Virus record (IMG/VR): IMGVR_UViG_3300040801_004246
Coordinates: 1-60,193 of that record
Length of the DNA stretch: 60,193 nt
Direction: 5' to 3' (one strand)
Source of the DNA: a virus
Positions 12,427 to 45,870 of the stretch are shown one piece after another. Numbering within the stretch: position 1 is the stretch's first letter; each line of letters starts with the position of its first letter. The notes beneath the pieces are model-generated. The model made no database searches. It was not told the origin of the DNA and saw nothing but the letters and a program-made list of their open reading frames with translations. Position numbers and translations under genes: made by a program.

Positions 12427-15400
12427 ATGGGATGTGTTCAACTAGAGGTGACTTTAACTGAGGCTGTTTTACTGCAGACCTCACACCCACTCAGAACGAC
12501 TGGCAAGTTTGTCAGAGCGGTCATCGAAGATGATACGGGCACACCTGTAGCTGGATCTCCTTTCGTTCTCGCCGACGAAGGCGGGGGTATTTACCGAAGC
12601 ACATCTTACGTTCCAGCGGCTATTGGAAATTACTTTGGCGAAATCTTATTTTATGATGATGCAGGCTTCACCACACTGAGTCCTGAGGTGGGCCCTGTCA
12701 CATTCCAGATCTTTGTAAATGAGAATGAAACTAAAATTAACACGCTCAATGATACGAAGCTCACTACCGCTCGTGCGAACAATCTTGATAACCTTGATGC
12801 GGCTATTTCTACAAGAGAGTCTGAAGCTGATGCAGCGACGCGCGCTTCGACAAATCAAACAGAGCACGATGCCACTCAAACTCAAATAAGTAATTTAAAT
12901 GATATTGACCAGGCGGGAGTTCAGGCTGCCCTCACAGCTCAAGGCTACACCACAGGTCGTGCACCAAATCTTGATAACCTTGATGATACTATTACAAGTA
13001 GGCAATCAGAAGTTGATGCCGCCTCTCGTGCTGCCACAAACCAATCAGAGCATGACACAACCCAGGTAGCGATTTCCAATCTCAATGATCCCACAGCGGC
13101 AGCCATTGCTGATGCTGTATGGGACGAGGCTTTAGCCGATCACACAGCTCCAGGGTCAATGGGTGCAAACCAAAACTTGATCGATGACATCGAGGCGGAC
13201 ACAAGCTCTTTAAATGATGTGAAGATTACTACGGTCAGAGCGAATAATCTCGACAACCTTGATGACACGATATCAAGTCGTGAATCAGAAGCCGACGCTG
13301 CGACAAGAGCATCAACGAATCAAACTGAGCATGACACCACCCAAAGCGCAATCTCTGCTCTTAACAATCCGAGTGCCGCACAGATTGCCGATGCAGTGTG
13401 GGATGAAGCACTTGCTGACCATACGACAGCTGGCTCGATGGGCGCCAACCAAAACTTAATCGACGATATTGAAGCTGACACAGCTTCTTTGAATGACACA
13501 AAAATTACTACGGCTCGCGCAAACAACCTCGATAATCTAGATACCACTGTTTCCAGTCGTGAGGCTGAGACCGATGCGGCCTCCCGTGCTTCTAACAATC
13601 AGACAGAACACGATGCCACCCAGAGTGCGATCTCAAATCTCAACGACCCAACGGCCGCAGCTATCGCGGATGCCGTATGGGATGAAGCCTTGGCTGATCA
13701 CGTGGCCCCAGGAAGTATGGGTGCCAACCAAAATTTGATAGATGATATCGAAGCTGACACAGCCTCTCTTAATGACACCAAAATTACTACGTCTCGCGCA
13801 AACGCCCTTGATAATCTCGATGCAACGATCTCTTCAAGGGAAGCTGAGACTGATGCGGCCTCAAGAGCTTCTACCAATCAGACAGAGCATGATGCTACTC
13901 AAACGGCTATCGGTAACCTTAACGATCTGTCTTCTCTTGATATTCAGTCTGCACTCACTGCGCAGGGCTACACACCACCAAGAGCTGCGGCCCTTGATCT
14001 TCTTGATGCTGCTGTTTCCACGAGAGCTACTCAAGCAAGTGTAAATGTCATTGACGGTATCGTTGACGATATCCTAGAAGACACCGGCACAACAATCCCA
14101 GCTCAAATTTCAGCTCTTAATGACCCCACGGCTTTAGAAATTGCTGACGCCGTATGGGATGAGCCAAGGACAGGCCACGCGATTATCGGAACATTTGGGG
14201 AGTTTATTGACGCTTCCATTTCAAGTCGTGCCTCACAAACAAGTGTCGATAACATCCAAAATAACACTAACTTCCAAGCCACTATTCCTGATCAAGTTGA
14301 GCGTCCAACCTCAGGCACAGTTACAATTACGATTTTTGCAAGGCTTTTTGACAACCTTGGTGTGCCAAAAGACCCAGATCTCAACACTATGAATATTACC
14401 ATTCAAGATCAAGGCGGTGGGGGTATCATACCCTTGACCGCAATGACAAGAACAGGTGTTGGCAGATTCGAGTATGATTATGTTGTCACAACTTCAAGCC
14501 CTCTAGGTCAGCAAGTTATCTTTTTTGACTATGATGAAAGTGCTGTAGGGGTCCAACAGATCAGAACCCTCACTATGGCTGAAACTGCAAACACACTAGA
14601 CCAGATTGCACTCGATGCTGCCGACATCAAAGCTCAAACGGATCAAATCCTCTTTGACGGTAATAGCTATGTTCGCTCTGTGGCTGAAATTGTGAACGAC
14701 AAGACAGACTACACCCTCACAGCAGCTGACAAACAAGCCATCGTAGACGGGGGCCTTAATGAAGTTATCTCTGACTACACTGTCCCAGGATCAGTCGGCT
14801 TTGGGTTCAACTACCAAGTCTACGCTGGAGCTGTGTGGGTCAACACCACTGCCGGGGCACCTGGTACAGACGTAGGGATTCATGGGATTCCCTCAAACCC
14901 CTCTAACAACTTCGCAGACGCTTTAGCGCTAGCAAACTCTCTTAATCTAAGAAAGTTTATTCTTCTTGAAGGGACTTTCACTCTGTCTGGAGCGCTACCA
15001 AACTACGAAATTGAGATTAGAGATGCTGGTATCGTCAACTTCGGTGGGCAAAACGTGGATGGTTCTTTGGTAAGAGGCGGTACAGTTACAGGGACTATGT
15101 CAGGGGAAATCACACTTGTAGAAACAGTCCTTGATGATGTGGTCGATTTCCTTGGTACTGCTGTAAGATGCGGTCTTGACGGCACAACGCAACTTGGGGC
15201 GGGTCAGTCTACAATGCAGTCTTGCTACTCAAAAGTTCCCGGCAACGGCAGACCTGTAATTGATTTTGTAGTCGCAGGGCGAACTTTAAATATGCGTGCT
15301 TATAGCGGCGGTCTGAGGGTCGTCAATATGACTGACGCCTCAAACTTAGCAACTGTTGAATTTATCGCAGGTAAAATTGATCTCCCAGCAAGCAACACAG

Positions 15401-18400
15401 ACGGGGAAATCTCCATACGAGGTACCGTGGTGATTGACGATCAGAGCGTTGGCCTTACTGTCGACCAAACTGCTGCGATCTGTGTCGCTAAAATAGTCGA
15501 TAATACTTGGGACGAACCAAGAGCGGACCACACTCTTGCAGGCTCTTTCGGTGAAGGGGCTCAGGGTGTCCTTTCTATAGCAAGGGCCGATAACCTTGAT
15601 AATCTCGATGACACAATATCTAGTCGTCAGTCAGAAGTAGATGCTGCCTCTAGAGCGTCTACTAACCAAACAGAGCATGATGCAACACAAGCTGCCATTG
15701 CAGCTCTCGAGAATGCTAGCCTTACGGATATCGCTGATGCCGTTTGGGATGAGGCTTTAGCTGATCATTTAGCGCCAGGCTCTATGGGAGCTAATCAAAA
15801 CCTTATTGATGATATTGAGTCTGACACTAGCACTCTCAATGATACTAAGATAACCACAGCTAGAGCTAACAATCTTGACTTCCTTGATGTAGCTGTCTCA
15901 AGTCGTGAAGCCGAAACAGACGCTGCAAACAGAGCAGCTACAGATCAGGCAGAGCATGATGCTACTCAACTTGCAATTTCCAACCTCAACGACCCCACAG
16001 CTGCAGCAATTGCGGACGCTGTATGGGATGAAGCGCTCGTTGACCACAACACACCGGGCTCCATGGGAGCTAATCAGAATTTGATCGATGATATTGAATC
16101 TGACACCAGCACGCTTAATGATACAAAAATTACGACTGCCAGAGCGAACAACCTGGACCGCCTTGATGCAACTATTTCGAGTCGTCAGTCAGAGCTTGAT
16201 GCCGCAAACAGGGCTGCTACTGATGTGGCAGAGCACAACGCAACTCAGTCAGCGATCGCTGCTCTTGAAAATGCAAGTCTGGGTGATATTGCTGATGCTG
16301 TATGGGATGAAGCTCTTGCAGGGCATACAATTGCAGGGTCTGCAGGTTTTGCTCAAAATCAAATTGATGACATCCTTGCCGATACTGCAAGCCTTGATAA
16401 CGTAAAGCTTACTACAGCACGTGCGAACGCCCTTGATAACTTAGACGTTGCAGTTTCAACGAGGGAATCTGAAGTGGACGCTGCAGCCAGAGCTTTTGCA
16501 GATCAAAATTCTCATTCTCAGACCCAAACTGATATCGCAAACCTCAATGATCCTACTGTTGACCAAATAGTAGACGGTGTTTGGGATGAGTCACTTCTTG
16601 CTCACCAGATTGCAGGATCTGCTGGAAGAGTCTTGTCAGACATTTCTGCAATTAACATCAACTCACTTGCCCAGGCCGTGTGGGATGAAGACGTTCTAGG
16701 GAACACAAACCCAGGAACTTTTGGCTCTTATGTAGATGTGATCCGGAATACTGTACTTTCAAGTGCTAACGACTTAAATGATGGTGCTACAGGTCTGGTG
16801 GCGATTTTTAATGAGATCGGTAATGAGCACGGCCTCACAAGAAGTGAGATCAACATTAACGAAGCAAAAATTGATAACCTCTCTTCTCAACTCTCAGGAA
16901 CTGAGTCTGATCTGACAGCTGAGATCCTGACGAACAGGTCTCAAATTGGTAACCTATCCACTCAACTCGGTACGGCAGAATCAAATATCATCTCTGAGGT
17001 TGACCAAAACGAGACTAAGATTGATACGGTCAACCAGAATATCCTGACCATTCAAAACAACACTACAACTAGGTTCGTTGTACCGACAAGGCTCATCAGA
17101 CCAACAGTTGGTACAAAGGATTATGAGTTCCACTTGCGCCTTTACAACACACAAGGGCAGGCGGAGGCTCCCGATGCAGCTCCAACTATTGAAATCTTAA
17201 GGCTTGATACCGGGGCAGTCCTTGATAGCGGAACTATGACTCAAATTGGGGCCGAAGTCGGGGCCTACAGATACCAGCTTACGCTCACACCGTCTTCTCC
17301 TGATGTCCCTGTGCTAGTGGAAGCAAGAGTAGTTGAAAACGGTGAGGCGAGGCTGGTTCCCGCAACAAGTGAGATCACGGACTTTGAGTCTGACCTCACT
17401 GCACTTGACGCAAAAGTTGATGCTGTTGACCTGAAGGTGACTGACAGCAACACCCTTTTAAATAGCGGTGTTTTTGGGCTTCAGGCTCTCAGAAACAACC
17501 ATGACGTGATCGTAAACGAGATCAACGCCAATGAAACGAAGATCGATGCGATCAAAGCAAAAACTGATAACCTACCAAATGATCCTGCAAGTGCTACCCA
17601 GGTGGCTGCTGTTAACGCCACGGTGCTGACAAGACCAACACTTGTCCAGATCCAAAACGCCCTTAATACTTTAGAAGATGCTTTGAGAGGCCCTGATAAT
17701 AGAAACCTCACCGAGGTTTATGATGTCTTTGATGTGTCAGGCTTGCTCACAGACACTGACCCAAGGCTTGATAACTTGGATGCAGCGATCAGTTCTCGAA
17801 GTACACTCACAGCAGCTCAAGTTTGGGCCCATGTGAATAGAACGCTTACAGCGCTGACAATTCCTGCCGCTGAAATTGATAAAATTTGGGATTACCTGAC
17901 AAGTCAGGCAACAACTCCAAACTCTATTGGAAAGCTCATCGTCGATTTCCTTGATGTCGCAGTCAGCTCAAGAGCCTCAACAACTGATGTTACAGGGCCG
18001 CTTGCTGGAGTCGCTCAAGAAGCCACACTCACAGCCTTTGCTGGAGCAACGGCCACAAGGTTTACTGATGTTGATAATGACAACGCTGCAATCAAAGCCG
18101 ACACAGCAGCGATCAAAGCAAAAACTGACAATCTTCCAAGTGATCCTGCTTCTCAAGGCGCTGTGAATGCTCGCTTCACTTCTGTGGATAACGACCTCAC
18201 AAATGCTCTTGCTGAGCTTGCTCTGATAAAAGCAAAGACTGATAACTTGCCAGCTGATCCTGCAAGCAACACGGAAGTAAACCAGATTCCTACGAATCCT
18301 TTGCTTACCACTGATCCAAGGCTCAATAACCTTGATGCTGCAGTCAGTTCAAGAGCAACCCCTGCGGATCTTGATGTCTCTGCTCTTGTGACCTCTGTTG

Positions 18401-19026
18401 AGTACCAGTCTGGTAAGACTCAAATCATTGATGAGATCAATGACAACGAGGCTAAGATCGACTCGATCCTTACCAATCTCCTGGCTGTTAAGGCGTCAAC
18501 TGATAACTTGCCAGCAAACCCTGCAAGTGAAGCAACTCTCACCCAAGGTATTACAGATATCAGAGATGACATCTCAAATATCCCTGGTGGTGGAGGCGGT
18601 GGCCTCACGGCGGCCGATGTTTGGAGCTTCGCGAATCGTGAGCTCACAACGAACCCAGATACCTTTAAAGCTGACGTTTCAAACTTGGCAACACAAACGG
18701 ATGTGCAGAACATCCCAGCCAACTATGACGTTAAAACCTCAACCACTCTTGATTCCGTATCCGACCAACAGCAGGTCATCGTGTGGCTTGAGAAAAATGG
18801 TGCCAGAGTACCTGGTGCAACAAACTGTACGATTACAATTAAGGACGCTGCCGGAGCAACGGTGTGGACCCAAACACAGGCCGCATCAAATGCCGAGGGA
18901 GTATTTACATTTACCGAGGGCAGTGTAACGACGCTTGTGAATAACCGAAATTACTACATCTCTGTTACAGTCGAAGACGGTGGCACGCCAGTAAGTTCGA
19001 ACACAGCTTTCTTTACAGTCCAGTAG
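12427..19026 (+). CDS. Giant repeat fibre protein (2199 residues)
   Basis: Probable long tail fibre. Residues 1-100 form a beta-sandwich. Block A (about 12.75-14.04 kb) and block B (about 15.58-16.7 kb) are built from 93-residue units containing ARANNLDNLD, SSREAETDAA, NQTEHDATQ and IADAVWDEALADH. Between them lie a second beta-sandwich (about residues 620-720) and a Gly-rich, beta-helix-like region (about 800-1020). A third beta-sandwich (about 1550-1660) precedes four copies of a KTDNLP-DPAS element. An Ig-like domain ends the chain. WDEALADH-type repeats occur in other phage fibres. The alternating rod and sandwich layout fits a trimeric shaft with docking domains. No tape-measure hydrophobic segments are seen. 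Confidence 0.75.
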   Translation: MGCVQLEVTLTEAVLLQTSHPLRTTGKFVRAVIEDDTGTPVAGSPFVLADEGGGIYRSTSYVPAAIGNYFGEILFYDDAGFTTLSPEVGPVTFQIFVNENETKINTLNDTKLTTARANNLDNLDAAISTRESEADAATRASTNQTEHDATQTQISNLNDIDQAGVQAALTAQGYTTGRAPNLDNLDDTITSRQSEVDAASRAATNQSEHDTTQVAISNLNDPTAAAIADAVWDEALADHTAPGSMGANQNLIDDIEADTSSLNDVKITTVRANNLDNLDDTISSRESEADAATRASTNQTEHDTTQSAISALNNPSAAQIADAVWDEALADHTTAGSMGANQNLIDDIEADTASLNDTKITTARANNLDNLDTTVSSREAETDAASRASNNQTEHDATQSAISNLNDPTAAAIADAVWDEALADHVAPGSMGANQNLIDDIEADTASLNDTKITTSRANALDNLDATISSREAETDAASRASTNQTEHDATQTAIGNLNDLSSLDIQSALTAQGYTPPRAAALDLLDAAVSTRATQASVNVIDGIVDDILEDTGTTIPAQISALNDPTALEIADAVWDEPRTGHAIIGTFGEFIDASISSRASQTSVDNIQNNTNFQATIPDQVERPTSGTVTITIFARLFDNLGVPKDPDLNTMNITIQDQGGGGIIPLTAMTRTGVGRFEYDYVVTTSSPLGQQVIFFDYDESAVGVQQIRTLTMAETANTLDQIALDAADIKAQTDQILFDGNSYVRSVAEIVNDKTDYTLTAADKQAIVDGGLNEVISDYTVPGSVGFGFNYQVYAGAVWVNTTAGAPGTDVGIHGIPSNPSNNFADALALANSLNLRKFILLEGTFTLSGALPNYEIEIRDAGIVNFGGQNVDGSLVRGGTVTGTMSGEITLVETVLDDVVDFLGTAVRCGLDGTTQLGAGQSTMQSCYSKVPGNGRPVIDFVVAGRTLNMRAYSGGLRVVNMTDASNLATVEFIAGKIDLPASNTDGEISIRGTVVIDDQSVGLTVDQTAAICVAKIVDNTWDEPRADHTLAGSFGEGAQGVLSIARADNLDNLDDTISSRQSEVDAASRASTNQTEHDATQAAIAALENASLTDIADAVWDEALADHLAPGSMGANQNLIDDIESDTSTLNDTKITTARANNLDFLDVAVSSREAETDAANRAATDQAEHDATQLAISNLNDPTAAAIADAVWDEALVDHNTPGSMGANQNLIDDIESDTSTLNDTKITTARANNLDRLDATISSRQSELDAANRAATDVAEHNATQSAIAALENASLGDIADAVWDEALAGHTIAGSAGFAQNQIDDILADTASLDNVKLTTARANALDNLDVAVSTRESEVDAAARAFADQNSHSQTQTDIANLNDPTVDQIVDGVWDESLLAHQIAGSAGRVLSDISAININSLAQAVWDEDVLGNTNPGTFGSYVDVIRNTVLSSANDLNDGATGLVAIFNEIGNEHGLTRSEININEAKIDNLSSQLSGTESDLTAEILTNRSQIGNLSTQLGTAESNIISEVDQNETKIDTVNQNILTIQNNTTTRFVVPTRLIRPTVGTKDYEFHLRLYNTQGQAEAPDAAPTIEILRLDTGAVLDSGTMTQIGAEVGAYRYQLTLTPSSPDVPVLVEARVVENGEARLVPATSEITDFESDLTALDAKVDAVDLKVTDSNTLLNSGVFGLQALRNNHDVIVNEINANETKIDAIKAKTDNLPNDPASATQVAAVNATVLTRPTLVQIQNALNTLEDALRGPDNRNLTEVYDVFDVSGLLTDTDPRLDNLDAAISSRSTLTAAQVWAHVNRTLTALTIPAAEIDKIWDYLTSQATTPNSIGKLIVDFLDVAVSSRASTTDVTGPLAGVAQEATLTAFAGATATRFTDVDNDNAAIKADTAAIKAKTDNLPSDPASQGAVNARFTSVDNDLTNALAELALIKAKTDNLPADPASNTEVNQIPTNPLLTTDPRLNNLDAAVSSRATPADLDVSALVTSVEYQSGKTQIIDEINDNEAKIDSILTNLLAVKASTDNLPANPASEATLTQGITDIRDDISNIPGGGGGGLTAADVWSFANRELTTNPDTFKADVSNLATQTDVQNIPANYDVKTSTTLDSVSDQQQVIVWLEKNGARVPGATNCTITIKDAAGATVWTQTQAASNAEGVFTFTEGSVTTLVNNRNYYISVTVEDGGTPVSSNTAFFTVQ
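12745..14040 (+). repeat. 279-base coding repeat, block A
   Basis: Tandem in-frame repeats in the giant fibre gene. The GCN-GAY-GCN-GTN-TGG (ADAVW) codon run occurs at 13108, 13387 and 13666, an exact 279-base (93-codon) spacing. Flanking shorter units (AALTAQGYT, near 12930 and 13950) bracket the block at both ends. Third codon positions differ widely between copies. Confidence 0.85.
15580..16740 (+). repeat. 279-base coding repeat, block B
   Basis: Second tandem array of the same 93-residue module. The equivalent (A/V)D-x-VW codon run occurs at 15733, 16012, 16291 and 16570, again exactly 279 bases apart. The last unit diverges (IVDGVWDESLLAHQ). Protein identity between copies is high while wobble bases vary. 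Confidence 0.85.
17540..18540 (+). repeat. KTDNLP-DPAS coding repeat
   Basis: Four irregularly spaced copies of a short element encoding K(A/S)-K/S-TDNLPxxPAS near 17551, 18112, 18226 and 18490, with two copies of a TDPRLxNLDAA(I/V)SSR element near 17755 and 18310. They form the distal shaft of the giant fibre. The spacing is not constant, unlike blocks A and B. Confidence 0.75.
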
Positions 19027-20055: not shown

Positions 20056-22164
20056 ATGGCTGGAAGTGACTTAAATTCTCAAGACGGATTCGTATCACCG
20101 AGTTTACAGCTCGGAGGTGGTCTTGACCGTGGTCGCTACCCAAACCAGTTCTTTGATCTCGCTCAGCAGTACATGCCGCCCACCATCAAGGAGCTCTTCC
20201 GGTGGTGCACATTCTACTACTACAATTCACCGCTCATTGGGGCTGCGATTACCAAGATTTCGCGGTATCCGATCACAGACCTCATATTTGATGACGACAA
20301 AGAAAGCATCCGTCGTATCTGGGATGATCTCTTTAATAAGCACTTGAAAATGAAAGAATTCTTGATGGAGGTCAATCTTGACTACCATGCCTACGGAAAC
20401 GCTTTCATTTCTATGCACTTACCCTTCACCCGGTTTCTTCGGTGCCAAACTTGTAACCACTCAGCTCCCATAAAGCAGTGGAACTGGAATTTCAACACAG
20501 GTGGTGGATACGAATTTTACGGCAAATGCTCAAACTGCCACACAGACGGCACCCTCAAAGTAAAAGACATCCCTTACAAAGATAAAAAGGGTGTGCGCTT
20601 TATCAGGTGGAACCCAGAGAATATCTCAGTCAAACATAACGAGTACACCGGTCGCCGGATCTACATGTACACCGTCCCCTATAAGCTCAAAAACCTCATC
20701 CAAAGGGGAGATAAGGACATACTCGAAGACATCCCAATGGTTGTCATCGAAGCTCTAAAAAAGCGCCGTATGATCCGAATGAATACCGACAACTTCAAGC
20801 ACCTCAAACGCCCCACACTTGCCGAGCAAGACCAGGGGTGGGGGAAACCTCTCATTATCCATGTCCTAAAAGACATGTACTACCTCTACACACTTCGTAG
20901 AGCCCAGGAAGCAATCGCTCATGAGCACATTGTACCTTTTGACATCATTTACCCTATGCCAAATGCTCAACAAGATCCTTACATCCACACGGATCTTGCC
21001 AACTGGCGCGTACAGATCGAGGGGATTATACGAAAACACCGGAGAGATCCTAACTTCAAAGGAGTTATTCCTGTGCCTGTTGGGTTTGGCCGTCTTGGTG
21101 GTGATGGCAAGGCGATGATGCTCACACCTGAGCTCAACTACCTCACACAAACAATTGTGGGTGGTATGGGTATCCCCCAAGAGTTCTTATTTGGTGGTTT
21201 AAATTTCACCGGGTCCAGCATTTCACTTCGTACCCTTGAGAACGACTTCATTCAAAATAGATCGCAGCTTCTTGATGTCGTTCACTGGGTCAAAGATAAG
21301 CTCCGAATCTGGCTTAACTTGCCTGACATAAAAGACATTGAATTCTCTGATTTCAGGATGGCTGATGATGTTCAAAGAAATCAGCAACTTATAGGCCTAA
21401 ACGCTCAAATGAAGGTTTCCGATCAAACCATGCTAACTGAACTGGGCTACGACTGGGAGCAAGAGCAGCAGAAAATGATTGAAGAGGCTCAGTTCCAGAA
21501 CTTCCTCAACGACATCAGAGCGAAAGCTGGGGCGAAAACTCAAGGTGAGGCCGGTATTATTCAGTACAACTACCAGCAAAAAATCCAAGAGCTCGCAACA
21601 AAGGCTCAAGAAGAAGCCCAGCAAAAAGCTGAAGAGACCCACCGAAAGATGCTTGCTGATAAGGCAAGGGGCGGGACGATGACCCAAGACATGATGGACG
21701 GGGCTCCCCCACCTCAAATGATGAGTCAGCAAGGCTGGGCTGGCCAAGTGGCAAGCCCTGTCCAAGCACCTCCAGCAGAGGGTGGTCAGCAGCCAATGGC
21801 GCCACAGCAAGGCACTCCAGGAGATATGGATCCTTCTCAAGCCGTTCAAGGCGGGGCCGAGATGGCAGCAGGTGCCCAGCAGCCACCAGCAGGTCAACCC
21901 GCCCCAATGATGGGCGGACCTCAGACTGAGGTCGAGGCCATGGTGGATCAAGACCTCAATTCAAGAGCCTCTCGCCTAGCCTCAAAGCTTACAATGTTCG
22001 CAAGCCATGAGGCAGCCAACGCCATCCAAACGATGAAGCAAAAAGCTCCAGACTTTGGTGCTATGGTAGAGCAGGCTTACAATGAAAGAATGCAGGGGTC
22101 AGCCCCCGTTCCTGGTAATATGGAAAAAGCTCCGGAGGGGCCGACAGCCGAAGGAATGAGCTGA
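20056..22164 (+). CDS. Portal protein
   Basis: Predicted dodecameric portal through which DNA is packaged and ejected. Residues 1-450 show portal features: an N-terminal helical crown or stem with SPLIGAAITKISRYP, a wing with MYYLYTLRRAQEAIAHEHIVPF, and GMGIPQEFLFGGLNFTGSSISLRTLENDF, a motif typical of this family. A four-cysteine zinc ribbon is inserted near residues 130-161 (CQTC and CSNC). The C-terminal 200 residues are Gln/Pro/Ala-rich and probably disordered. At 702 residues it is longer than many portals. It lies about 19 kb from the large terminase and over 35 kb from the capsid gene, an unusual separation. Confidence 0.85.
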   Translation: MAGSDLNSQDGFVSPSLQLGGGLDRGRYPNQFFDLAQQYMPPTIKELFRWCTFYYYNSPLIGAAITKISRYPITDLIFDDDKESIRRIWDDLFNKHLKMKEFLMEVNLDYHAYGNAFISMHLPFTRFLRCQTCNHSAPIKQWNWNFNTGGGYEFYGKCSNCHTDGTLKVKDIPYKDKKGVRFIRWNPENISVKHNEYTGRRIYMYTVPYKLKNLIQRGDKDILEDIPMVVIEALKKRRMIRMNTDNFKHLKRPTLAEQDQGWGKPLIIHVLKDMYYLYTLRRAQEAIAHEHIVPFDIIYPMPNAQQDPYIHTDLANWRVQIEGIIRKHRRDPNFKGVIPVPVGFGRLGGDGKAMMLTPELNYLTQTIVGGMGIPQEFLFGGLNFTGSSISLRTLENDFIQNRSQLLDVVHWVKDKLRIWLNLPDIKDIEFSDFRMADDVQRNQQLIGLNAQMKVSDQTMLTELGYDWEQEQQKMIEEAQFQNFLNDIRAKAGAKTQGEAGIIQYNYQQKIQELATKAQEEAQQKAEETHRKMLADKARGGTMTQDMMDGAPPPQMMSQQGWAGQVASPVQAPPAEGGQQPMAPQQGTPGDMDPSQAVQGGAEMAAGAQQPPAGQPAPMMGGPQTEVEAMVDQDLNSRASRLASKLTMFASHEAANAIQTMKQKAPDFGAMVEQAYNERMQGSAPVPGNMEKAPEGPTAEGMS

Positions 22165-23644: not shown

Positions 23645-26600
23645 TTGACCTCCTTTGATGTTAAATTGTTACCAATAGGCTTATACCAGGACGCTATGCG
23701 AAATTTTGGACTGAACCAGCAATTCGAAGAAATCAAAAAGGCGGCGGAAGAGTCCGTCCGATCCATATTCCCCGTGGAGGGGAAGACCCGTGTGCTGGAG
23801 CTCAATAGCATTTCGATAGAAGATAACCTTAGCCCAGACTCTTATACCACCCAAGCCAAGGCAAAATCTAAGAACTCCACCTTCGGGGTTCCCGTCTATG
23901 CAAGCCTGACTCTAAAGGATAAGAAAACCGGCAAAACCATCGATCAAAAAGATAAGGTCAAGCTATTCACTTTGCCAAAGATCACAGACCGCTTCTCATA
24001 CATTGTGAAGGGGAACGAGTATCAGGTCACAAATCAACTCCGTTTAAAACCTGGGGTGTACACACTTCGTAAACAAAACGGCGACCTCAAGACCCAGTTC
24101 AACTTAGCCCGAGGAAAGAACTTCGAGCTCCATTATAACGAAAGAAACGGCCGCCTTACCATCACCAAGATCGGTGGCGCTGGGCAAGCCAAGATCCCTC
24201 TTTACCCGGTGCTTACCCACTTAGGTATCAGCCCTGCGATGATCGCAAAAGAGCTTGGTAGTGATGTGGCAGATGCCAATAAGGAGTCTGAAACACCACA
24301 GCTCATAAATCGAATAAGATCAGCATTTAATATCCGAAAAGGGACTTTCAAGGATTATCTCAATGAGAAAACTGAACTCAGCCCTGAGACTACAGAAACG
24401 ACGCTTGGCAAAGGATTTTCTAAAGTTGATGGACAGGCTCTTCTCTCAGCCGCAAAAAAACTCGTATCGGTTTACAAGGGCCAAGAAAAGCCAGAAGACC
24501 GTGACTCATTAGAGTTTAAAGACCTCCTCTCAACTGAGGACTTTATCAAAGAGCGCCTTGGTGATGATCGCCAGCGCCGCACACTTGAGTATAAGATCAG
24601 AAGAACCATCGACTCCCCAAAAAGGACCACCATCCAGCAGATCGTAAATCCTGGATCGTTTAACAACATCGTTGAGTCCTTCTTCACACAAGACGACAAA
24701 TCATCTACCCCTGAGCAAACAAACCCACTTGAGATGCTCTCAGGCCAGTACAAAGCCACCATCATGGGTTCAGGTGGTGTGACATCAGACCACCAGGTCT
24801 CCGAAGAGATGCGTGAGATCCACCCCACCCACTTCGGCTTCATGGATCCAGTCCACACCCCGGAGTCAAACCGAATCGGGGCAAACCTTCACATTCCACT
24901 GGGAGCAGTTAAAGACGGAAAACAAATCAAAATGGTGGTCGAAGACAAGTCCGGGAAAAAGATCACAATCACTCCAAAGGAAGCGTTCAATAAAAAAGTA
25001 CAGCTTCCAGAGCCGGTCAAAGGTGGCAAGGTTCGCTACCTTCACAAAGGCGAGGTAAAAGAAGGTAAGCCTTCTGAGGTCGACTATAAGACCTTGGCTC
25101 CTCAGCAGCTCTTTTCATACTCAACAAACCTTGTCCCTTTCCTCTCATCAGATCAAGGAACTCGTGCCATGATGGCTGCTAAACAAATGGAGCAAGCCAT
25201 TTCCCTTAAGCACCGCGAGAAGCCTCTTGTTCAAGTCTCTGATGCCAGTGGTGGGAAAACCTTTGAGAAGCGAATTGGTGAAGTCGTAGCCAAAACAAGT
25301 CCATTTGACGGGACAGTAAAGAAGATCGCCCCTGACCACATGATCATCAAAACAAGTGAGGGGGATAAAAAAGTTGAGCTCTACAACAAATTCACCCTTA
25401 ACAGAAAGTCTTTCCTCAATCATGAGCCTACAGTTAAGGTCGGCGACAAAGTTAAAAAAGGAGATCTCCTTGCAGACTCCAACTTCACAAAAGATGGAAC
25501 ACTTGCGCTTGGAACTAATCTCCGTACAGCATATCTTCCATATAAGGGGCTTAACTTCGAAGACGGAATCGTCATTTCAGAGTCCGCTGCTGAGAAGCTT
25601 ACCAGTGTACACATCACCAAAAAGAACTTCGTTTCAGACGATAAAACAATTCAGAACAAGAACAAGTTTCAAGCCTACTACCCCAATGCCTTAACTGGAG
25701 CGAACCTCTCAAAGCTCGACCAAGACGGAGTCATCCGTAAAGGTCAAAAGGTCAATATGGGTGAGGTGGTGATCGCTGCCATGAGACGGAGAGATATGGC
25801 ATCAGCCAATATCGCTAAAGTTAAGAAAGCTCTTTCTGACAGGCCATCTGATGTGTCCGTGTACTGGAACTTTGAAGACCAGGGGACTGTCGTTGATGTC
25901 CAAAAGCAGGGAAAAGAAATCACTGTCTTTATTGAGACCGAGGAAAGAGCAAAGATTGGTGACAAGCTCACAGGCCGCCACGGAAACAAAGGGATCATCA
26001 CAAAGATCATCCCAGATAGTGCTGCACCAAGAAACAAAGACGGGGAGCCAGTACAGGTTCTCTTAAATCCCCACGGTGTGATCTCTCGGATCAATGTCGG
26101 CCAAATCTATGAGTCAGCTGCCGCTAAAGCATCAAAGAAGCTTGGCACAACAACTGAGGTCCCGAACTTCGCAGGGCTTGATAACAAAAAATTCACCAAG
26201 GGGCTTCTTGCAAAAGCAGGTATCTCAGATAAAGAAGAGCTCTTTGATCCAGAAACAGGTAAGTCCTTAGGACAAGTCCACGTCGGTGATCCTCACATAC
26301 TAAAACTTTTTAAACTTTCGACCTCAAACTTCTCCTACCGTCAAGGTGGGCCAGGAGCTCCTTATGACATGAACAAGCAGCCCCTTAAAGCAGGTGGTGA
26401 GGAAAGTGCTAAGAGGCTTGATCCTCTAATGCTCTACTCAATGCTTTCTCATGGAGCCAGAGCCAACCTTCGGGATATGGTGACTGTGAAGTCTGATCAG
26501 AATGATGAGTTTTGGAAGTCACTTAAATCAGGTCAATTCCTACCGCCTCCAAAGTCCCCATTTGTTTATGATAAGTTCATGGGCTACCTCAAAGGTGCTG

Positions 26601-29600
26601 GTATTGATGTCAAAAAAGATGGAAGCAAGATGACCCTTGCCCCGCTCATTGACAAAGAGATCGAAGCCTCTTCAAGTGGCGAGGTCAAAAAGACAAGTTT
26701 TTACCGAGCTAAAGACATGCAGCCTATTAAGGGCGGCTTCTTTGACGAAAAGAAAATGGGTGGGTTTAAAGGTGAGAAGTGGGGCCACATAAATCTTGCC
26801 GAGCCCATCGTAAACCCTGTCTTTGAAAAAGCTGTAAAGAAGCTCACAAACCTAGGTTCCAAATACAACAAGATTGTCGAGGGCACGATGTTCTACGACA
26901 ACGGCAAGTTCAACACAGAAGGTAAGGGGCTCACTGGTGGAAAAGCTATTAAGAAGATCCTCTCAGAAATCAACGTGGACGAAGAAATCAAAAAGCTCAC
27001 AAAGAAAGCTGAAACGGCTAAAGGCAAGAGCCTTGATGAAACTAACAAGAAACTGCGATACCTCAAAGTCCTTAAAGATAACAACCTCAAGCCACAAGAC
27101 GCTTATGTCCGAGAAAAGGTTCCAGTTGTCCCGCCTCAGTTCAGACCAATCTACCCCTTACCGGATGGGAACATTGCCTCGAGTGATATCAACTTTTTAT
27201 ACCGTGACTTATCACTCTTAAACGACATGGCTAAAAAGCCTGTCATGGATCTCTTACCTGATGAGGCAAAGGCTGAGCTAAGAAAAGACATGTACAAAAC
27301 TATGAAGGGTGTCACCGGAATGAATGACATCAACGTCATGGGTCGGGAGCGAAGCGGTTTCATCTCAGAGATCGGTGGTGGAAAAGGCGGTCAGCCAAAG
27401 ACAGGTCTTTTCCTTCGTAAGGTCATCTCTAAAAATCAAGACTTTGTGGGGCGAGGAACAATTATCCCAGAGCCTGAGCTTGATGTCGACTCAGTAGGAA
27501 TCCCTGAGACAATGGCATGGAAGCTCTTTGAGCCTTTCGTGGTCAGAGAACTTAAAAACTATGGAAAGACTCCGCTTGAGGCAAAAGAAGAGATCAAAAA
27601 CAAAACTCACCTTGCTAAAAAAGCCCTAGAGGTCGTGATGCGAGATAAGAAGGTGCTACTCAACCGAGCACCCTCTCTTCACAAGTTCTCAGTCATGTCC
27701 TTCAAACCACAGATCACAAGTGGTACGGCCATCAAGATCCCCCCTCTTGTCGTAAAAGGTTTTAACGCCGACTTTGACGGGGATGCGATGACCATACACG
27801 TTCCAGTCACCGAGGAAGCAACAAGGGAAGCTGATAAGCTACTTCCCTCAAACAACCTCTGGAAGCCTGGTACAAAAGACCTCATGCTCACCCCAAGCCA
27901 AGAAGCCCAGGTGGGTATCTTCTACCTATCTAAAACACCAAAGGGCCGAGTAGAGCTTAACAAGATCCTACCTAAAAAATACTCAGTCAGCACCACCCTT
28001 GATAAAGGAGCCACTAAGACGCTTCTTTCCCGTATGGCAAAAGAGCTCCCAAACCAAGAGTTCGGGAGCATCTTAGGAAAGCTCAAAATGGCAGGTGAGA
28101 AGCAAGCCTACGACCAAGGGTTCACCCTCGGCGTGGATGATCTCCCTGACTTCGGCGGCAAGCGAGATGCGTTTGTCACTCAGGCCAAAGCCTTTGCTAA
28201 AAAGAATCAAAACAATCCAGAGGCTCTTGCTAGACAGGCAGGAATCTACAATAAAGCTCAAGACAAAGCCATAGCCATGCGGCTACAAGGCAAGAACAAC
28301 CCTCTTTACGATATGGTTGAATCTGGTGCCAGAGGTGGGGGATCACAGCTTCGCTCTATCCTCACTACCCCACTATTTGTGGAAGACTCTAAAGGTCGTA
28401 CCATCCCTAACGCCATCTCAAAGTCCTACTCTGAAGGCCTTGATATCAGTGACTACTGGACAAGTCTTTATGGAGCAAGACGAGGGATTATGGATCGAGC
28501 CTTACAGACTGCCATTCCTGGTGGGTTCTCAAAAGAAATTATGGCAACAGTTATTGACTCAGTGATCTCAAAAGATGACTGCGGAACAACAGATGGGGTG
28601 TTTTTAGATGTCAAGTCTGATGATGTGGTTGGCAGGTACTTGGCTGGTAATCAGCTTGGGTTCTCTCATAATGCTCTTGTCGACTCCAGCTTGCAGTCAA
28701 AGCTTGCAAAGAAGAATATCAAGACAGTCAAAGTTCGTTCACCACTTAAATGCGAAGAACCAAAGGGTGTCTGCCAAAAGTGCTACGGTATTGACGAGAA
28801 CGGAAACGACCCAATCATCGGTGAAAACATTGGGGCGAAAGCCGGACAAACAATCTCTGAGCCTCTAGTTCAGATGGCAATGAACACGTTCCATTCAGGC
28901 GGTGTTGCGGGAGACTCTGGAAAAGCTGAAGGGTACGCTCGTATCAACCAGCTCCTAAAACTCCCTGAGGTTGTTCCCGGTAATGCCACTCTCGCTACAG
29001 TCAGTGGGCGAGTCACAAAGATCTCTAAAGGGCTTGCCGGAGGGCAAGACATCTTCATAGGTGCTGTTAAGCACTTCGTACCAGCTGGAAGGAAGCTTAA
29101 AGTTAAGGTCGGCTCAAATGTTGAAGAGGGTGATCCCTTATCAACAGGGGTGATCAAACCTCAAGACCTTGTTGAAAGAAAAGGGATGGGTGCCGCACAA
29201 GAGTACCTTGTTGATGAGCTCCAAGGAGCTTACAAAGGCCAACGTGTGCCAATTGAAAGAAAGATTTTTGAGACAGTGGTGAGATCCACCACCAACCAAA
29301 CACAAGTCCTCAACAACCCCATACACTCACCATTCAAACCCGGTGACGTGATCCCCTACACCACAGCTCTTAACCACAACAAAAATCTTGAAGGGGCAAT
29401 CCCTGTTGAGCAAGCCGTGGGGCTTAAACTTGCTGCAAGCTATGGACCCATGGGTAAAGGAATGATGGTCACTGAAAAAGACGTCAAACTTTTAAAAGCC
29501 CTTGGACACAAAACAGTTCGAGTGAAACGCGACCCTGTGGTTCACCAACCAATACTTAAAACAATCAACCGTCTGCCTATGATGAAGCAAGACTGGATGG

Positions 29601-29743
29601 GTGCTCTTGGATTCCAAAGACAAACTGAGGTCCTTCAAACAGGTGCGAGCGAAGGCTGGTCAACAGACCTTTCAGGCTACCACCCGATTCCCGCTCTTGC
29701 TTTCGGTAAAACCTTTGGTAAAGGTGAGGATGGAAAATACTAA
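23645..29743 (+). CDS. Fused beta-beta' subunit DNA-directed RNA polymerase
   Basis: One 2032-residue chain containing both large subunits of a multisubunit-type RNA polymerase. The beta part (about 1-1010) has HPTHFGFMDPVHTPESNRIG, GRHGNKG (777-783) and a C-terminal clamp resembling beta. The beta' part (about 1020-2032) opens with WGHINLAEPI and carries the catalytic NADFDGD (1374-1380), which binds two Mg ions. It also has a zinc-type cluster (C1703, C1710, C1713 in KCEEPKGVCQKCYG) and a trigger-loop-like TFHSGG (1748). No alpha, omega or sigma gene is seen in the window. Beta plus beta' of E. coli is about 2750 residues, so lineage inserts are missing. The start is uncertain: TTG 23645, TTG 23666 or ATG 23696, none with a good ribosome site. 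Confidence 0.93.
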   Translation: MTSFDVKLLPIGLYQDAMRNFGLNQQFEEIKKAAEESVRSIFPVEGKTRVLELNSISIEDNLSPDSYTTQAKAKSKNSTFGVPVYASLTLKDKKTGKTIDQKDKVKLFTLPKITDRFSYIVKGNEYQVTNQLRLKPGVYTLRKQNGDLKTQFNLARGKNFELHYNERNGRLTITKIGGAGQAKIPLYPVLTHLGISPAMIAKELGSDVADANKESETPQLINRIRSAFNIRKGTFKDYLNEKTELSPETTETTLGKGFSKVDGQALLSAAKKLVSVYKGQEKPEDRDSLEFKDLLSTEDFIKERLGDDRQRRTLEYKIRRTIDSPKRTTIQQIVNPGSFNNIVESFFTQDDKSSTPEQTNPLEMLSGQYKATIMGSGGVTSDHQVSEEMREIHPTHFGFMDPVHTPESNRIGANLHIPLGAVKDGKQIKMVVEDKSGKKITITPKEAFNKKVQLPEPVKGGKVRYLHKGEVKEGKPSEVDYKTLAPQQLFSYSTNLVPFLSSDQGTRAMMAAKQMEQAISLKHREKPLVQVSDASGGKTFEKRIGEVVAKTSPFDGTVKKIAPDHMIIKTSEGDKKVELYNKFTLNRKSFLNHEPTVKVGDKVKKGDLLADSNFTKDGTLALGTNLRTAYLPYKGLNFEDGIVISESAAEKLTSVHITKKNFVSDDKTIQNKNKFQAYYPNALTGANLSKLDQDGVIRKGQKVNMGEVVIAAMRRRDMASANIAKVKKALSDRPSDVSVYWNFEDQGTVVDVQKQGKEITVFIETEERAKIGDKLTGRHGNKGIITKIIPDSAAPRNKDGEPVQVLLNPHGVISRINVGQIYESAAAKASKKLGTTTEVPNFAGLDNKKFTKGLLAKAGISDKEELFDPETGKSLGQVHVGDPHILKLFKLSTSNFSYRQGGPGAPYDMNKQPLKAGGEESAKRLDPLMLYSMLSHGARANLRDMVTVKSDQNDEFWKSLKSGQFLPPPKSPFVYDKFMGYLKGAGIDVKKDGSKMTLAPLIDKEIEASSSGEVKKTSFYRAKDMQPIKGGFFDEKKMGGFKGEKWGHINLAEPIVNPVFEKAVKKLTNLGSKYNKIVEGTMFYDNGKFNTEGKGLTGGKAIKKILSEINVDEEIKKLTKKAETAKGKSLDETNKKLRYLKVLKDNNLKPQDAYVREKVPVVPPQFRPIYPLPDGNIASSDINFLYRDLSLLNDMAKKPVMDLLPDEAKAELRKDMYKTMKGVTGMNDINVMGRERSGFISEIGGGKGGQPKTGLFLRKVISKNQDFVGRGTIIPEPELDVDSVGIPETMAWKLFEPFVVRELKNYGKTPLEAKEEIKNKTHLAKKALEVVMRDKKVLLNRAPSLHKFSVMSFKPQITSGTAIKIPPLVVKGFNADFDGDAMTIHVPVTEEATREADKLLPSNNLWKPGTKDLMLTPSQEAQVGIFYLSKTPKGRVELNKILPKKYSVSTTLDKGATKTLLSRMAKELPNQEFGSILGKLKMAGEKQAYDQGFTLGVDDLPDFGGKRDAFVTQAKAFAKKNQNNPEALARQAGIYNKAQDKAIAMRLQGKNNPLYDMVESGARGGGSQLRSILTTPLFVEDSKGRTIPNAISKSYSEGLDISDYWTSLYGARRGIMDRALQTAIPGGFSKEIMATVIDSVISKDDCGTTDGVFLDVKSDDVVGRYLAGNQLGFSHNALVDSSLQSKLAKKNIKTVKVRSPLKCEEPKGVCQKCYGIDENGNDPIIGENIGAKAGQTISEPLVQMAMNTFHSGGVAGDSGKAEGYARINQLLKLPEVVPGNATLATVSGRVTKISKGLAGGQDIFIGAVKHFVPAGRKLKVKVGSNVEEGDPLSTGVIKPQDLVERKGMGAAQEYLVDELQGAYKGQRVPIERKIFETVVRSTTNQTQVLNNPIHSPFKPGDVIPYTTALNHNKNLEGAIPVEQAVGLKLAASYGPMGKGMMVTEKDVKLLKALGHKTVRVKRDPVVHQPILKTINRLPMMKQDWMGALGFQRQTEVLQTGASEGWSTDLSGYHPIPALAFGKTFGKGEDGKY
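23680..23687 (-). promoter_or_regulatory. GGTATAAG promoter-like element (minus strand)
   Basis: GGTATAAG on the minus strand, 24 bases before the AAAGGAGGT of the minus-strand cluster. It lies inside the most upstream possible coding frame of the divergent RNA polymerase gene, just before its in-frame ATG at 23696. Part of a recurrent set (see 34182, 45871, 47830). Confidence 0.4.
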
Positions 29744-30732: not shown

Positions 30733-31396
30733 GGAGTATCCCGTTGAGTGTGGCCGTTTGGTTATAGCAGTCAAAGACTCCGTCGTGTGAGCCTCTCCCT
30801 GCAGAGATTTCATCTTTATTGATACCAAAAGCTGTGAACATCATAGCCCAGCCATTTTTGTCAGCCTCATTAAGCATTTCTTTTCGATCGACCTCATAGG
30901 AAGTTTTGTTCTCTAAATATTGAATCGCTCCACCGAGCTCGTAGATTCTGTAGTGGTGATCACCCACCAGTTGATCTGTTTCGTTGTCAGTGTAGGGTGC
31001 ATAAAGAAACCTGTCTCTGTGAAGTAAAGGCACATCAAAACTCGAGGCGTTCCAACCACAGAGTTTCCTATCCCATACCTCTTTTGCTCCGCAGTCAGAC
31101 ATAAAGTTCACCATTTTAATTCGCACGTCACTTGGCGTTTGGATCATACGGGACTCAGAGCACCTCTTAAATAACTCTTTCTGATGCTCTTCCTGAAAGG
31201 GGTTAAGTTTTTTTGGCATCTCATGATAAGCAAGCCACTCAAAGAGATTGCCTGGTCGCCAAAGCCTCGCCTCATTTGACCAGTTCAGCTCAAGCATTGC
31301 GATCTGAAGGATCTTGCTTGGCGGCTCGCTATTTAACGGGTGGGGATGGATCACAGTCCCCGTCGTTTCAAGATCCACCATAAACATCTTGCTCAT
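30722..31396 (-). CDS. DnaQ-like 3'-5' exonuclease (DEDD family)
   Basis: Predicted 3'-5' exonuclease acting on DNA or RNA ends. Exo I is VDLETTG (D8, E10), Exo II-like is GWNASSFDVPLL (near 113-124), and Exo III-like is SHDGVFDCYN near the C terminus, giving a DEDDh arrangement. At 224 residues it is a stand-alone exonuclease domain. The start (ATG 31396) overlaps the helicase stop by four bases, so the two are co-translated, consistent with a joint role in replication, recombination or host DNA degradation. The phage also has an exonuclease domain inside its DNA polymerase, so this enzyme is additional. Confidence 0.85.
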   Translation of the reverse strand: MSKMFMVDLETTGTVIHPHPLNSEPPSKILQIAMLELNWSNEARLWRPGNLFEWLAYHEMPKKLNPFQEEHQKELFKRCSESRMIQTPSDVRIKMVNFMSDCGAKEVWDRKLCGWNASSFDVPLLHRDRFLYAPYTDNETDQLVGDHHYRIYELGGAIQYLENKTSYEVDRKEMLNEADKNGWAMMFTAFGINKDEISAGRGSHDGVFDCYNQTATLNGILHVD

Positions 31397-32637
31397 TTCT
31401 CTTCTCCTTTTTTTGCATAAAAATTGTAAGCATCCCTATCACACCAAACCTTCCGTCTCCGCCAGTTCAGAGCCGAAAGCCCTTCAAGGCTCCTCACTCT
31501 TGAAAGAGCAACATAAGACTGCCCTGGTGAAAAGACTCTCCCGAAGTCCACTTGGCAATAATCCAAAGTCATCCCCTGGCTCTTATGAACCGTCACAGCG
31601 TAGGCAAGCTTCAAAGGCACTTGGCTAAACTTAGCGATCTCCTCATCCGTACTATCAAGTTTCGTCCAGTCATCTTTTTCAAATCGGATGAACTCGCCAT
31701 TTGTGGTGAGCACTTCAGCCCCAAACTTATCAAGCTTAATGACTTTCCCCATGGTCCCGTTGCAATAGTTGTCACCATTTTTTAGGGCCATGACCTGAGC
31801 GCCCACTTTAAGGGTGAGCTTCTCTGGGGCGATCATGTCCTTTACGAGATTGTCGTAGTGGAACTTGTACTGCTTATCAGTCATGTGCTCCCAGTTGCGA
31901 ATTTCAACAGAAGCCCCAAAGGTCTGTGTTTTGGTATCGAGCTTTGCAAGCTCAGCTTGGTTGATTTTGTCAGCCTCTTTGTTCGTGGCGACAAGTTTGA
32001 CGGGGAGAACATCCTTAAAGGTTGCCCCCTCGCGAGAAGCGATCATCTCGTTTTCAACCTGAGTGCAGATTCCTTTCCTGATATTAAGAAGGGCCTCGCC
32101 AAACTCTTTGTTGTCTTGCCTCCAAATCTTAGTAAGCTCGATCACCTCTGGGTTGATCTCTTTCCAAAGCTTTGAGTGAAAGATCCATGGGCTTGTCGTC
32201 TCTCTTTTATTCACTGGTGGGAGCTGAAGAAAGTCCCCACTTAAAAGAACCTTCTTTCCACCAAAGGGTTCTTTGTAGTTGCCAGTGGCTTCCTTAAAGA
32301 TCTCACCCAAAAGCTCAAACTGCTTCCTATGAAGCATCGACACTTCATCAATCACGATGAGATTTGCAAGATTGATTCTTTCTTCAACCTCATCAAAAAA
32401 TGGGCTCTGCACTATTCTGTAGATTGAGTTTGGCTCAGAAAAAACCCCCATGCTCGAAAAGCGGTGAATCGTTTCACCGCTCAAGTGAGTGGCAGCAATT
32501 CCTGTGGTGGCAGTCCTTGCAACGTTGGATACGTTCTCACAAATCCTGTTGATGTTGTAAGTCTTTCCCGTTCCTCCTGGTCCGGTCAGAAGGGCAATCT
32601 TTTTCTCCTCAAGTGCGTCTAATATTTTTTCATACAT
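31393..32637 (-). CDS. PIF1/RecD-type superfamily 1B DNA helicase
   Basis: Predicted 5'-3' ATP-dependent DNA helicase. Walker A is GPGGTGKT (19-26), Walker B is VIDEVSML, motif III is SGDFLQLPP, and the C-terminal helicase motifs are YAVTVHKSQGMTLD and YVALSRVRSLEGL, the signature that separates PIF1/RecD2/Dda helicases from UvrD. It is 414 residues, similar to T4 Dda (439). In phages such helicases load at origins or clear bound proteins. Upstream is AAGGAGGGCAG and a large hairpin terminator for the previous gene, so it may have its own promoter. Confidence 0.9.
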   Translation of the reverse strand: MYEKILDALEEKKIALLTGPGGTGKTYNINRICENVSNVARTATTGIAATHLSGETIHRFSSMGVFSEPNSIYRIVQSPFFDEVEERINLANLIVIDEVSMLHRKQFELLGEIFKEATGNYKEPFGGKKVLLSGDFLQLPPVNKRETTSPWIFHSKLWKEINPEVIELTKIWRQDNKEFGEALLNIRKGICTQVENEMIASREGATFKDVLPVKLVATNKEADKINQAELAKLDTKTQTFGASVEIRNWEHMTDKQYKFHYDNLVKDMIAPEKLTLKVGAQVMALKNGDNYCNGTMGKVIKLDKFGAEVLTTNGEFIRFEKDDWTKLDSTDEEIAKFSQVPLKLAYAVTVHKSQGMTLDYCQVDFGRVFSPGQSYVALSRVRSLEGLSALNWRRRKVWCDRDAYNFYAKKGEEK

Positions 32638-42958: not shown

Positions 42959-43238
42959 GGCCTCCTCCTTTCATACTCGCTTCCATCTCAGCAAGCGTTT
43001 TAAACTCAACCTTTTTACCAGTGGGCATCCTCACATAAAAAGGAGACTCACCCTTCCCGCCTTTTTCCTTATCAAGCACTTCAGCAAGAGTTTGGTGCAT
43101 CAAGAAGAGACGGTGCTGGCTTGTTTCTCTTTCGACTGTGTGCTTTGCTTTGAGGACAAGGGCTTTTGTTTCACCCTTTCCTGAGTCGAATTTTTCGAGC
43201 TCTTCGAGTGTTCGTAAGATCGATTTTTTATAGTCCAT
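42951..43238 (-). CDS. Small helical protein overlapping RNase HII
   Basis: A 95-residue protein from ATG 43238 with AAAGGGGGA just upstream. The N-terminal half is helical and Lys/Glu-rich; the second half contains RMPTGKKVEFKTLAEME. Its first 139 bases overlap the 3' end of the RNase HII gene in another frame, a long overlap. Both frames have good coding character here. The function is unknown. Confidence 0.55.
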   Translation of the reverse strand: MDYKKSILRTLEELEKFDSGKGETKALVLKAKHTVERETSQHRLFLMHQTLAEVLDKEKGGKGESPFYVRMPTGKKVEFKTLAEMEASMKGGGHE

Positions 43239-44005
43239 ACATCCCCCTTTAGTTTATCAATGAGACCTTCTTCGGTTTTCCTCTTCCAGAGCTTTCGGCG
43301 TCTCTGCCAGAACTGCTCTTTTGACGGCGTAACCTTGTTGTTTCGGCTGACACTCAGCCTGTTGTGACCTTTGTTAACAAAGGGGTAAGCCCTAAACCTG
43401 TGAACCCCTGGAACAGCCCCATACTCATCAAGCCCTTTAAATTGCTGTTCACAAGGAAACCCTTTATTGGAATCCCATCCGTAGTAGGGGTGCTTTCTGT
43501 GGAGGTTGATCATTTCTTGGTCTCTGTAGACTTTGGCAACAACTGAGGCTGCGGCAATGCAAAGGGACTTCTCATCACCCTTTTCAATATTCTCTTGCTC
43601 AATCTCCGTGTGGACCAACCCGCTGCCATCGACCATCAAAAAGTCAGGCATGGTGTGATCTTGAGTCCCTGTCTTTTTGCAAGCAGCTACAGCCCTAGTT
43701 TGAGCTAAGGCAATCGCCCTATGCAGTCCCAAGTAGTCCATCTCCCTTGGGGTGACTTCTCCAATACCTATAGCAATGGCATTTTCCCAAACGACTTCAG
43801 CGTGCTGAACTCTGTATTTTTCAGGGATTTTCTTGGAGTCATTGACCTCAAAGATCCTAAGGTCAGCCGAGGAGAGGTCCTCGATTTTAGGCAAAATTAC
43901 GCAAGCAGCAATGAGGGGGCCAGCAATATCTGTAACCCCGGCTTCATCCACTCCTGCGATAAGCTCTCCACGATCGTAGTAGAGCCGATCAAAAGTGTTA
44001 TCCAT
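43100..44005 (-). CDS. Ribonuclease HII-like protein
   Basis: Predicted type 2 RNase H that cuts RNA in RNA-DNA hybrids, useful for primer removal. Catalytic residues are visible: D20/E21 in GVDEAG, D126 in FLMVDGSG, and D162 in CIAAASVVAKVYRD. Unlike standard enzymes, the DEAGRGP loop reads DEAGVTDIAGP, so the GRG motif that senses the ribonucleotide 2'-OH is changed and junction specificity may differ. At 301 residues it is about 100 longer than E. coli RNase HII (198). The extra C-terminal part is Lys/Ser/Gln-rich and overlaps the next gene. Confidence 0.85.
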   Translation of the reverse strand: MDNTFDRLYYDRGELIAGVDEAGVTDIAGPLIAACVILPKIEDLSSADLRIFEVNDSKKIPEKYRVQHAEVVWENAIAIGIGEVTPREMDYLGLHRAIALAQTRAVAACKKTGTQDHTMPDFLMVDGSGLVHTEIEQENIEKGDEKSLCIAAASVVAKVYRDQEMINLHRKHPYYGWDSNKGFPCEQQFKGLDEYGAVPGVHRFRAYPFVNKGHNRLSVSRNNKVTPSKEQFWQRRRKLWKRKTEEGLIDKLKGDVWTIKNRSYEHSKSSKNSTQERVKQKPLSSKQSTQSKEKQASTVSS

Positions 44006-44012
44006 ATGATCC

Positions 44013-44822: not shown

Positions 44823-44837
44823 AGTTTATTCCTCCAA

Positions 44838-45650: not shown

Positions 45651-45658
45651 GATACCTC

Positions 45659-45838
45659 CTAAAATGATATCCAGTTGAAGTGACGTGCGATGACGTGCAA
45701 GATGAAACTAATTACCCCTAGTGCTGAAGCTGTTGAGAGCTGCATCGTGCCGGACTTTCGATGAATGATCGTCATGAAAGCAGCGAAGATGAACCAACCA
45801 AAACAGTGGAACAGCAACAGGAGAGCGGTGTCGAGCAT
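45659..45838 (-). CDS. Short 59-residue two-helix membrane protein
   Basis: A small gene in an otherwise empty gap. ATG 45838 follows GGGGAGGT with normal spacing. The product has two hydrophobic helices (about residues 4-25 and 38-52) separated by a short basic turn (IIHRKSG). A GGTATAAG element lies 33 bases upstream, and its stop falls within the ribosome site of the DUF932-like gene, as expected for an operon. Small early membrane proteins can act in superinfection exclusion or host-membrane changes, but no target is known. Confidence 0.6.
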   Translation of the reverse strand: MLDTALLLLFHCFGWFIFAAFMTIIHRKSGTMQLSTASALGVISFILHVIARHFNWISF

Positions 45839-45870
45839 AGATACCTCCCCTATGGTTTAACTCTGTTTTC

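Follow-up and report, generated by a model that had tools for sequence, protein, structure and literature searches.

The virus record IMGVR_UViG_3300040801_004246 of IMG/VR (60,193 bases, all of which was analysed and is called the window here) is classed as linear, which usually means a fragment. On its plus strand it has an open frame, 23645-29743, of 2032 codons with no stop inside, for which the chance at its own base composition is about 2e-48. The encoded protein is a genuine one-chain cell-type RNA polymerase core, with beta and beta' in a single polypeptide, and it belongs to a large phage clade. The best explanation, which we hold with reasonable confidence, is that this core is carried in the virion, does without the alpha and omega subunits and works with a sigma-like factor of the phage. 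On the evidence of its sequence the enzyme is very likely active and alpha/omega-free, and by analogy with a cultured relative it is probably virion-carried with a sigma-like partner. Packaging in the window phage itself, activity without host subunits and promoter use are what we infer from these. Translation probably starts at the ATG at 23696 rather than the TTG at 23645, because an AGGA lies upstream of the ATG and two relatives (L005, L006) start at the same position. The main features of the gene are the following.

23696..29743, plus strand: single-chain beta-beta' RNA polymerase gene, 2015 amino acids (open frame from TTG 23645, ATG 23696 preferred)
23696..26608, plus strand: beta half, residues 18-988, with protrusion, lobe, fork, hybrid-binding double-psi barrel and shortened flap (Pfam Rpb2_3, Rpb2_6; E. 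coli beta alignment)
24821..24841, plus strand: HPTHFGF motif in the beta fork region
25973..25993, plus strand: GRHGNKG motif with Lys 782 (E. coli beta K1073); Lys 774 corresponds to K1065 (motif search, alignment)
26609..29740, plus strand: beta' half, residues 989-2032 (Pfam Rpb1_1, Rpb1_2, Rpb1_4, Rpb1_5; alignment)
26756..26764, plus strand: site of the missing beta' zinc-binding domain (E. coli C70-C88), at about residue 1039 (alignment)
27764..27784, plus strand: NADFDGD catalytic triad, Asp 1376, 1378 and 1380 (motif search, alignment)
28580..28792, plus strand: second zinc site, Cys 1646, 1703, 1710 and 1713 (CQKCYG included), conserved (alignment)
28886..28903, plus strand: trigger loop TFHSGG with His 1750 (E. 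coli beta' H936; motif search, alignment)

The initial annotation had read a beta-beta' fusion from five motifs in one frame, and this reading holds. The motifs lie in order, HPTHFGF at residue 393, GRHGNKG at 777, NADFDGD at 1374, CQKCYG at 1710 and TFHSGG at 1748. The profile search that it had proposed finds the domain series of beta (Rpb2_3, Rpb2_6) and then that of beta' (Rpb1_1, Rpb1_2, Rpb1_4, Rpb1_5) in a single protein, with the catalytic domains at E values of 1e-55 to 1e-24. Two of the six, Rpb1_1 (37.1 bits vs 39.7) and Rpb1_4 (17.7 vs 24.8), fall below the Pfam cut-off in hmmscan. Among solved structures, phmmer matches bacterial beta' at 1e-104 to 1e-89. AlphaFold2 models of residues 330-1480 and 1300-2032 have a mean predicted local distance difference test score (pLDDT) of 75 each and predicted template modelling scores (pTM) of 0.48 and 0.53, and all 50 solved matches listed by Foldseek for the predicted models are bacterial-type beta or beta' chains, one of them plastid.

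By alignment, Asp 1376, 1378 and 1380, Lys 774, Lys 782, Arg 1341 and His 1750 are intact in the window protein, and DxDGD and the equivalents of E. coli K1065, K1073, R425 and H936 are retained. The main rifampicin positions carry D516E, H526G and S531T, which suggests that the window enzyme may be resistant to rifampicin. The junction between the halves is well conserved. Compared with E. coli, beta lacks its final ~6 residues and beta' its initial ~15, ~21 in total, and the fusion is therefore direct, without a long linker. In a dN/dS (nonsynonymous to synonymous rate) comparison with the nearest relative, synonymous sites are saturated.

Relatives were collected from IMG/VR, where scans gave hundreds of candidate stretches, and from cultured phages; tblastn against phage records matched Vibrio phages D69, D148 and D181 and Salmonella phage Arash. 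The Arash proteins are homologous along the whole chain, at 34% and 27% identity. Arash and D69 have the first ~1430 residues in one protein, beta plus the N-terminal part of beta' (beta'N) with the catalytic triad, and a separate gene for the C-terminal part (beta'C). After loci with identical 100-mers were collapsed, 157 non-redundant loci remained: 77 have one chain, 34 are split near residue 1430, 22 are split twice, near 1100 and near 1430, 4 run off the contig and 20 are partial. The two-piece class thus has a beta+beta'N fusion and a separate beta'C, and the three-piece class is cut inside beta'. A beta gene ending at the canonical beta/beta' border was found in none of the 157. Each related record searched has a single polymerase locus.

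Phylogenetic trees were made with FastTree (86 sequences) and IQ-TREE (33 sequences, LG+F+G4, 1000 ultrafast bootstraps). They agree that the phage clade is monophyletic (100), and it consists of a one-chain clade (98-100) sister to a cut clade (98-100) that includes Arash, D69 and D181. The three-piece forms are nested within the two-piece forms in both trees, and the phage enzymes form a deep clade of their own outside the bacteria sampled. Parsimony on the tree tentatively suggests that the fusion is ancestral and the fissions later, one of them inside beta'; the three-piece forms are therefore unlikely to represent the original subunits. The deep branches are long, which weakens the case for an ancestral fusion.

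Some relatives have features of their own. D181 (L004 6001-11494) has a homing-endonuclease gene inserted in the beta region, at residue ~502-507, where D69 (L003) is intact. A beta+beta'N fusion of the cut clade lies on a 64-kb contig assigned to Desulfovibrio sp. An276 (L091, NZ_NFJC01000017.1), a hint as to the host. Single-frame beta-beta' genes of 1270-1801 amino acids also occur on contigs from metagenome-assembled genomes (MAGs) of Deltaproteobacteria/Desulfobacteraceae (L093/L116, L096, L115) and Thermotogota (L097, L098). These Desulfobacterota-type and Thermotogota genes branch outside the phage clade, their genomes also carry a normal rpoC, and their neighbours are weakly phage- or plasmid-like.

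The initial annotation called the polymerase near-complete, which is correct for nearly all bacterial domains and for the catalytic residues, and needs amending for two modules. None of the 72 clade members in the alignment (41 one-chain, 12 two-piece and 19 three-piece) has the first beta' zinc-binding domain. The flap-tip segment has 29 residues in the seven members measured, which cover all three classes, vs 41 in bacteria without insertions there. The large lineage-specific insertions of E. coli are also absent (parts of beta 220-358 and 934-1045, and of beta' 943-1128).

No alpha or omega (PF01000, PF01193, PF01192) scored above cut-off in the window or in 22 large related records, with positive controls; this search took in the complete Arash and D69, and the window's own genome is incomplete. 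An absence of sigma had been noted along with that of alpha and omega, and here the relatives differ. With Sigma70_r2, a canonical sigma was detected in the cut clade, and a single one-chain contig has one too. A weak second sigma match led to Arash Gp10 and a homologue in the L006 contig, which share 39% identity over 135 amino acids and both pass the Pfam Sigma70_r3 cut-off. A profile built from these two detects homologues in 20 of 30 related records (11 of 19 one-chain, 9 of 11 cut-clade). Seven of the eight one-chain contigs of at least 130 kb have a gp10-like protein, and the eighth has a different Sigma70_r2 protein. In the 60-kb window itself no sigma, alpha or omega was found, which is uninformative for a fragment. 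Larger related contigs and cultured relatives are mostly 108-194 kb, so the missing sigma is explained by the window being part of a genome that the relatives suggest is 110-195 kb long. A search for a T7-type polymerase in the same records gave no match, with controls equally silent, and is hence no evidence.

The link to the virion comes from Arash. Mass spectrometry of Arash virions detected Gp206 (beta+beta'N) more than any other protein, with 3516 spectra, ahead of the major capsid protein, along with Gp216 (beta'C, 1210 spectra) and the sigma Gp10 (467 spectra) (PMC10585845). The main text and listed table of that paper say nothing of a second Arash sigma, gp196 (PMC10585845). The polymerase gene of the window also lies downstream of a portal-like gene.

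20056..22164, plus strand: portal-like gene upstream of the polymerase (PHROG portal, E 1.2e-6; synteny)

A homologue of this gene occurs in 74 of 81 related loci, and among the 40 loci listed it is on the same strand, 1.4-7.0 kb upstream of the polymerase.

In the mechanism that we propose, the enzyme is a one-polypeptide core RNA polymerase, DNA-dependent and of the bacterial beta-beta' type. The fusion would provide in cis the beta/beta' pairing that cells obtain via an alpha dimer and omega, so that alpha and omega would not be required. The core would be packaged in the virion beside a phage sigma-like protein of the gp10 family, enter with the DNA and then use phage promoters to transcribe the phage genes. 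Host sigma-70 and host termination and antitermination factors would act poorly on it, since it has lost the flap tip and the beta' zinc-binding domain. The fullest form of this proposal is a two-polypeptide holoenzyme, a core of ~2000 amino acids and a virion sigma-like protein of ~235, that is injected and starts phage transcription without any host subunit, the one-chain state being ancestral and the fissions inside beta' later. This form is possible, at somewhat below even chances.

Several points weigh against a virion-carried one-chain core. Arash, the source of the virion data, is a two-piece relative, and the window phage and the one-chain members are known from genes alone. The window, being a fragment, has no gp10 homologue. 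A search of 24 upstream regions of the window for a conserved promoter motif gave nothing outstanding, the best motif being barely above shuffles, and sigma-70-like sites near the polymerase gene are at chance level. The structural models are of modest confidence for domain packing, as their pTM values show. The Arash authors allow for carry-over of abundant enzymes into particles (PMC10585845).

Such carry-over is central to the strongest competing explanation, in which the enzyme is made after infection for middle and late genes, the host polymerase reads the early genes and the Arash virion signal is carry-over. The second, more canonical sigma of the B/C-clade relatives could serve another stage and would suit this scheme. 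We consider it unlikely, since the Gp206 spectra exceed those of the major capsid protein, the sigma-like Gp10 is present in the particles too, the polymerase gene stands beside the portal gene clade-wide and each record has a single polymerase locus.

A hybrid enzyme, in which the fused phage core needs alpha, omega and sigma borrowed from the host, appears improbable. The lack of alpha and omega in the phage records and the conservation of E813/D814-type and other core residues are consistent with it. The shortened flap tip, the universal absence of the beta' zinc-binding domain among aligned members and the phage-encoded sigma-like protein in related records argue against it, as does the ability of split jumbo-phage polymerases to function without alpha (PMC7598289). 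The initial annotation had offered a one-chain version or borrowed host partners as alternatives; the chain is indeed single, and borrowing could happen but is the less probable, given that the flap tip, which holds sigma region 4, is shortened across the clade. More doubtful still is that the chain is a precursor cut after synthesis into beta-like and beta'-like pieces, for example by a prohead protease. Related clades encode the enzyme in two or three pieces, so cutting is tolerated, and a head-protease-like gene lies at 53665-55704, but the junction is well conserved and has no long linker. Nothing was found in favour of an assembly or gene-prediction artefact joining two genes, the danger flagged beforehand near 26.7 kb, and it is contradicted by codon-position composition that continues unbroken across the junction at ~26.6 kb, by the same fusion in the 77 non-redundant one-chain loci from many metagenomes, and by the beta+beta'N fusion in cultured Arash and Vibrio phages.

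Relatives also have in-frame inserts in the most conserved motifs of the polymerase, at window-protein residues ~407, ~776, ~1245, ~1380 and ~1750. The sites include HTPE|S, GDK(L)|xGRHGNKG, NADFDGD| and the trigger loop, and the inserts scanned (407, 1380, 1750) mostly match LAGLIDADG or intein-splicing profiles. Intein alleles at DxDGD, near residue 1380, often have Asn for a catalytic Asp, as NADFNGD|S... or NADFDGN|C... (L005 14069, L028 12694, L030 13072, L061 8590; L035/L036, L037/L038, L249). Asn is present in 6 of 135 non-redundant motifs, each time beside an intein, and the intein loci L006, L191 and L207 keep Asp. A spliced enzyme bearing Asn would be expected to lack activity unless that residue is converted.

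Elsewhere in the window, 12427-19026 is a 2199-residue gene with weak spectrin/CFAP91-like matches, possibly for a tape measure, and 1106-4210 encodes a 1034-residue protein with AIR9 Ig-like and laminin-G lectin domains. Downstream of the polymerase, on the minus strand, are a Pif1/Dda-like helicase (31393-32637) and, at 43100-47825, a family A DNA polymerase with an exonuclease domain near a ribonuclease HII-like gene.

Cellular polymerases rely on alpha (and omega) to join beta and beta'. If the proposal is true, a single chain that has nearly all bacterial domains and lacks alpha and omega would be a simple model for the roles of these subunits and, with a sigma of its own, could serve as a compact tool enzyme. 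A clade with one-, two- and three-piece versions, whose cuts lie off the ancestral border, offers a test of how multisubunit polymerases fuse and split. Since Arash and D69 are in culture, the predictions on virion and sigma can already be tested.

Helicobacter and its relatives have a natural RpoB-RpoC fusion, with beta head-to-tail with beta'. That fusion is a cellular housekeeping enzyme with alpha and omega. There is no sign of a Helicobacter-like origin in the tree, which has no Helicobacter sequence and places the phage clade outside the sampled bacteria. The crAss-like phi14:2 gp66, P23-45 gp64/gp96, YonO and QDE-1 also have both barrels in one polypeptide, and the crAss and P23-45 gp96 enzymes are carried in the virion (PMC10770324). 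These enzymes are so diverged that only the DxDxD region aligns with cells, whereas the window protein keeps most bacterial domains, with strong Pfam matches.

The phiKZ/AR9-type polymerases are likewise two-barrel enzymes encoded by phages, lack alpha and omega and are in some cases virion-carried, but each consists of four or five polypeptides, a phage has two of them and no sigma is recognisable (PMC7598289). The initial annotation was right to set the window apart from them: it has one chain, and its relatives have one locus per record and, in 20 of 30, a gp10-like sigma. The AR9 alignment covers 14% of the query, in short stretches only. The split near 1430 in the clade resembles the site after the beta' barrel that is common to jumbo-phage and cyanobacterial enzymes (PMC7598289).

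The closest described kind is that of the mReC and Arash polymerases. As far as their main text describes them, the mReC enzymes come from metagenomic tailed phages, have cell-like beta and beta' with DxDGD and form a deep-branching group separate from that of cells (Weinheimer and Aylward 2020, PMC7481178). The window likewise represents a tailed phage whose beta and beta' separate from those of cells in the trees and which has NADxDGD; for the mReC capsid trait PF07068, the window capsid matches PHROG 2522 and no Pfam family. The one-chain relative L204 comes from metagenome 3300017989, given there as the source of mReC1 and mReC3 (PMC7481178). The window clade probably overlaps mReC. That main text speaks of beta and beta' subunits, uses "fused" for crAss-like phages only, and does not describe one chain, a series of beta' fissions or a sigma partner (PMC7481178). 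Arash Gp206 and Gp216 share whole-chain homology and the portal neighbourhood with the window and form a virion polymerase with the sigma Gp10, but beta'C is split off; Gp206 is labelled "beta" in the Arash paper (PMC10585845) and also holds beta'N, catalytic triad included. No description of a one-chain phage polymerase of the cell-like kind was found in the full-text literature searched, subscription papers, among them Iyer and Aravind (2012) and Drobysheva (2021), lying outside it. The kind of enzyme is thus already known, and relative to that literature the one-chain architecture and the sigma partner are new.

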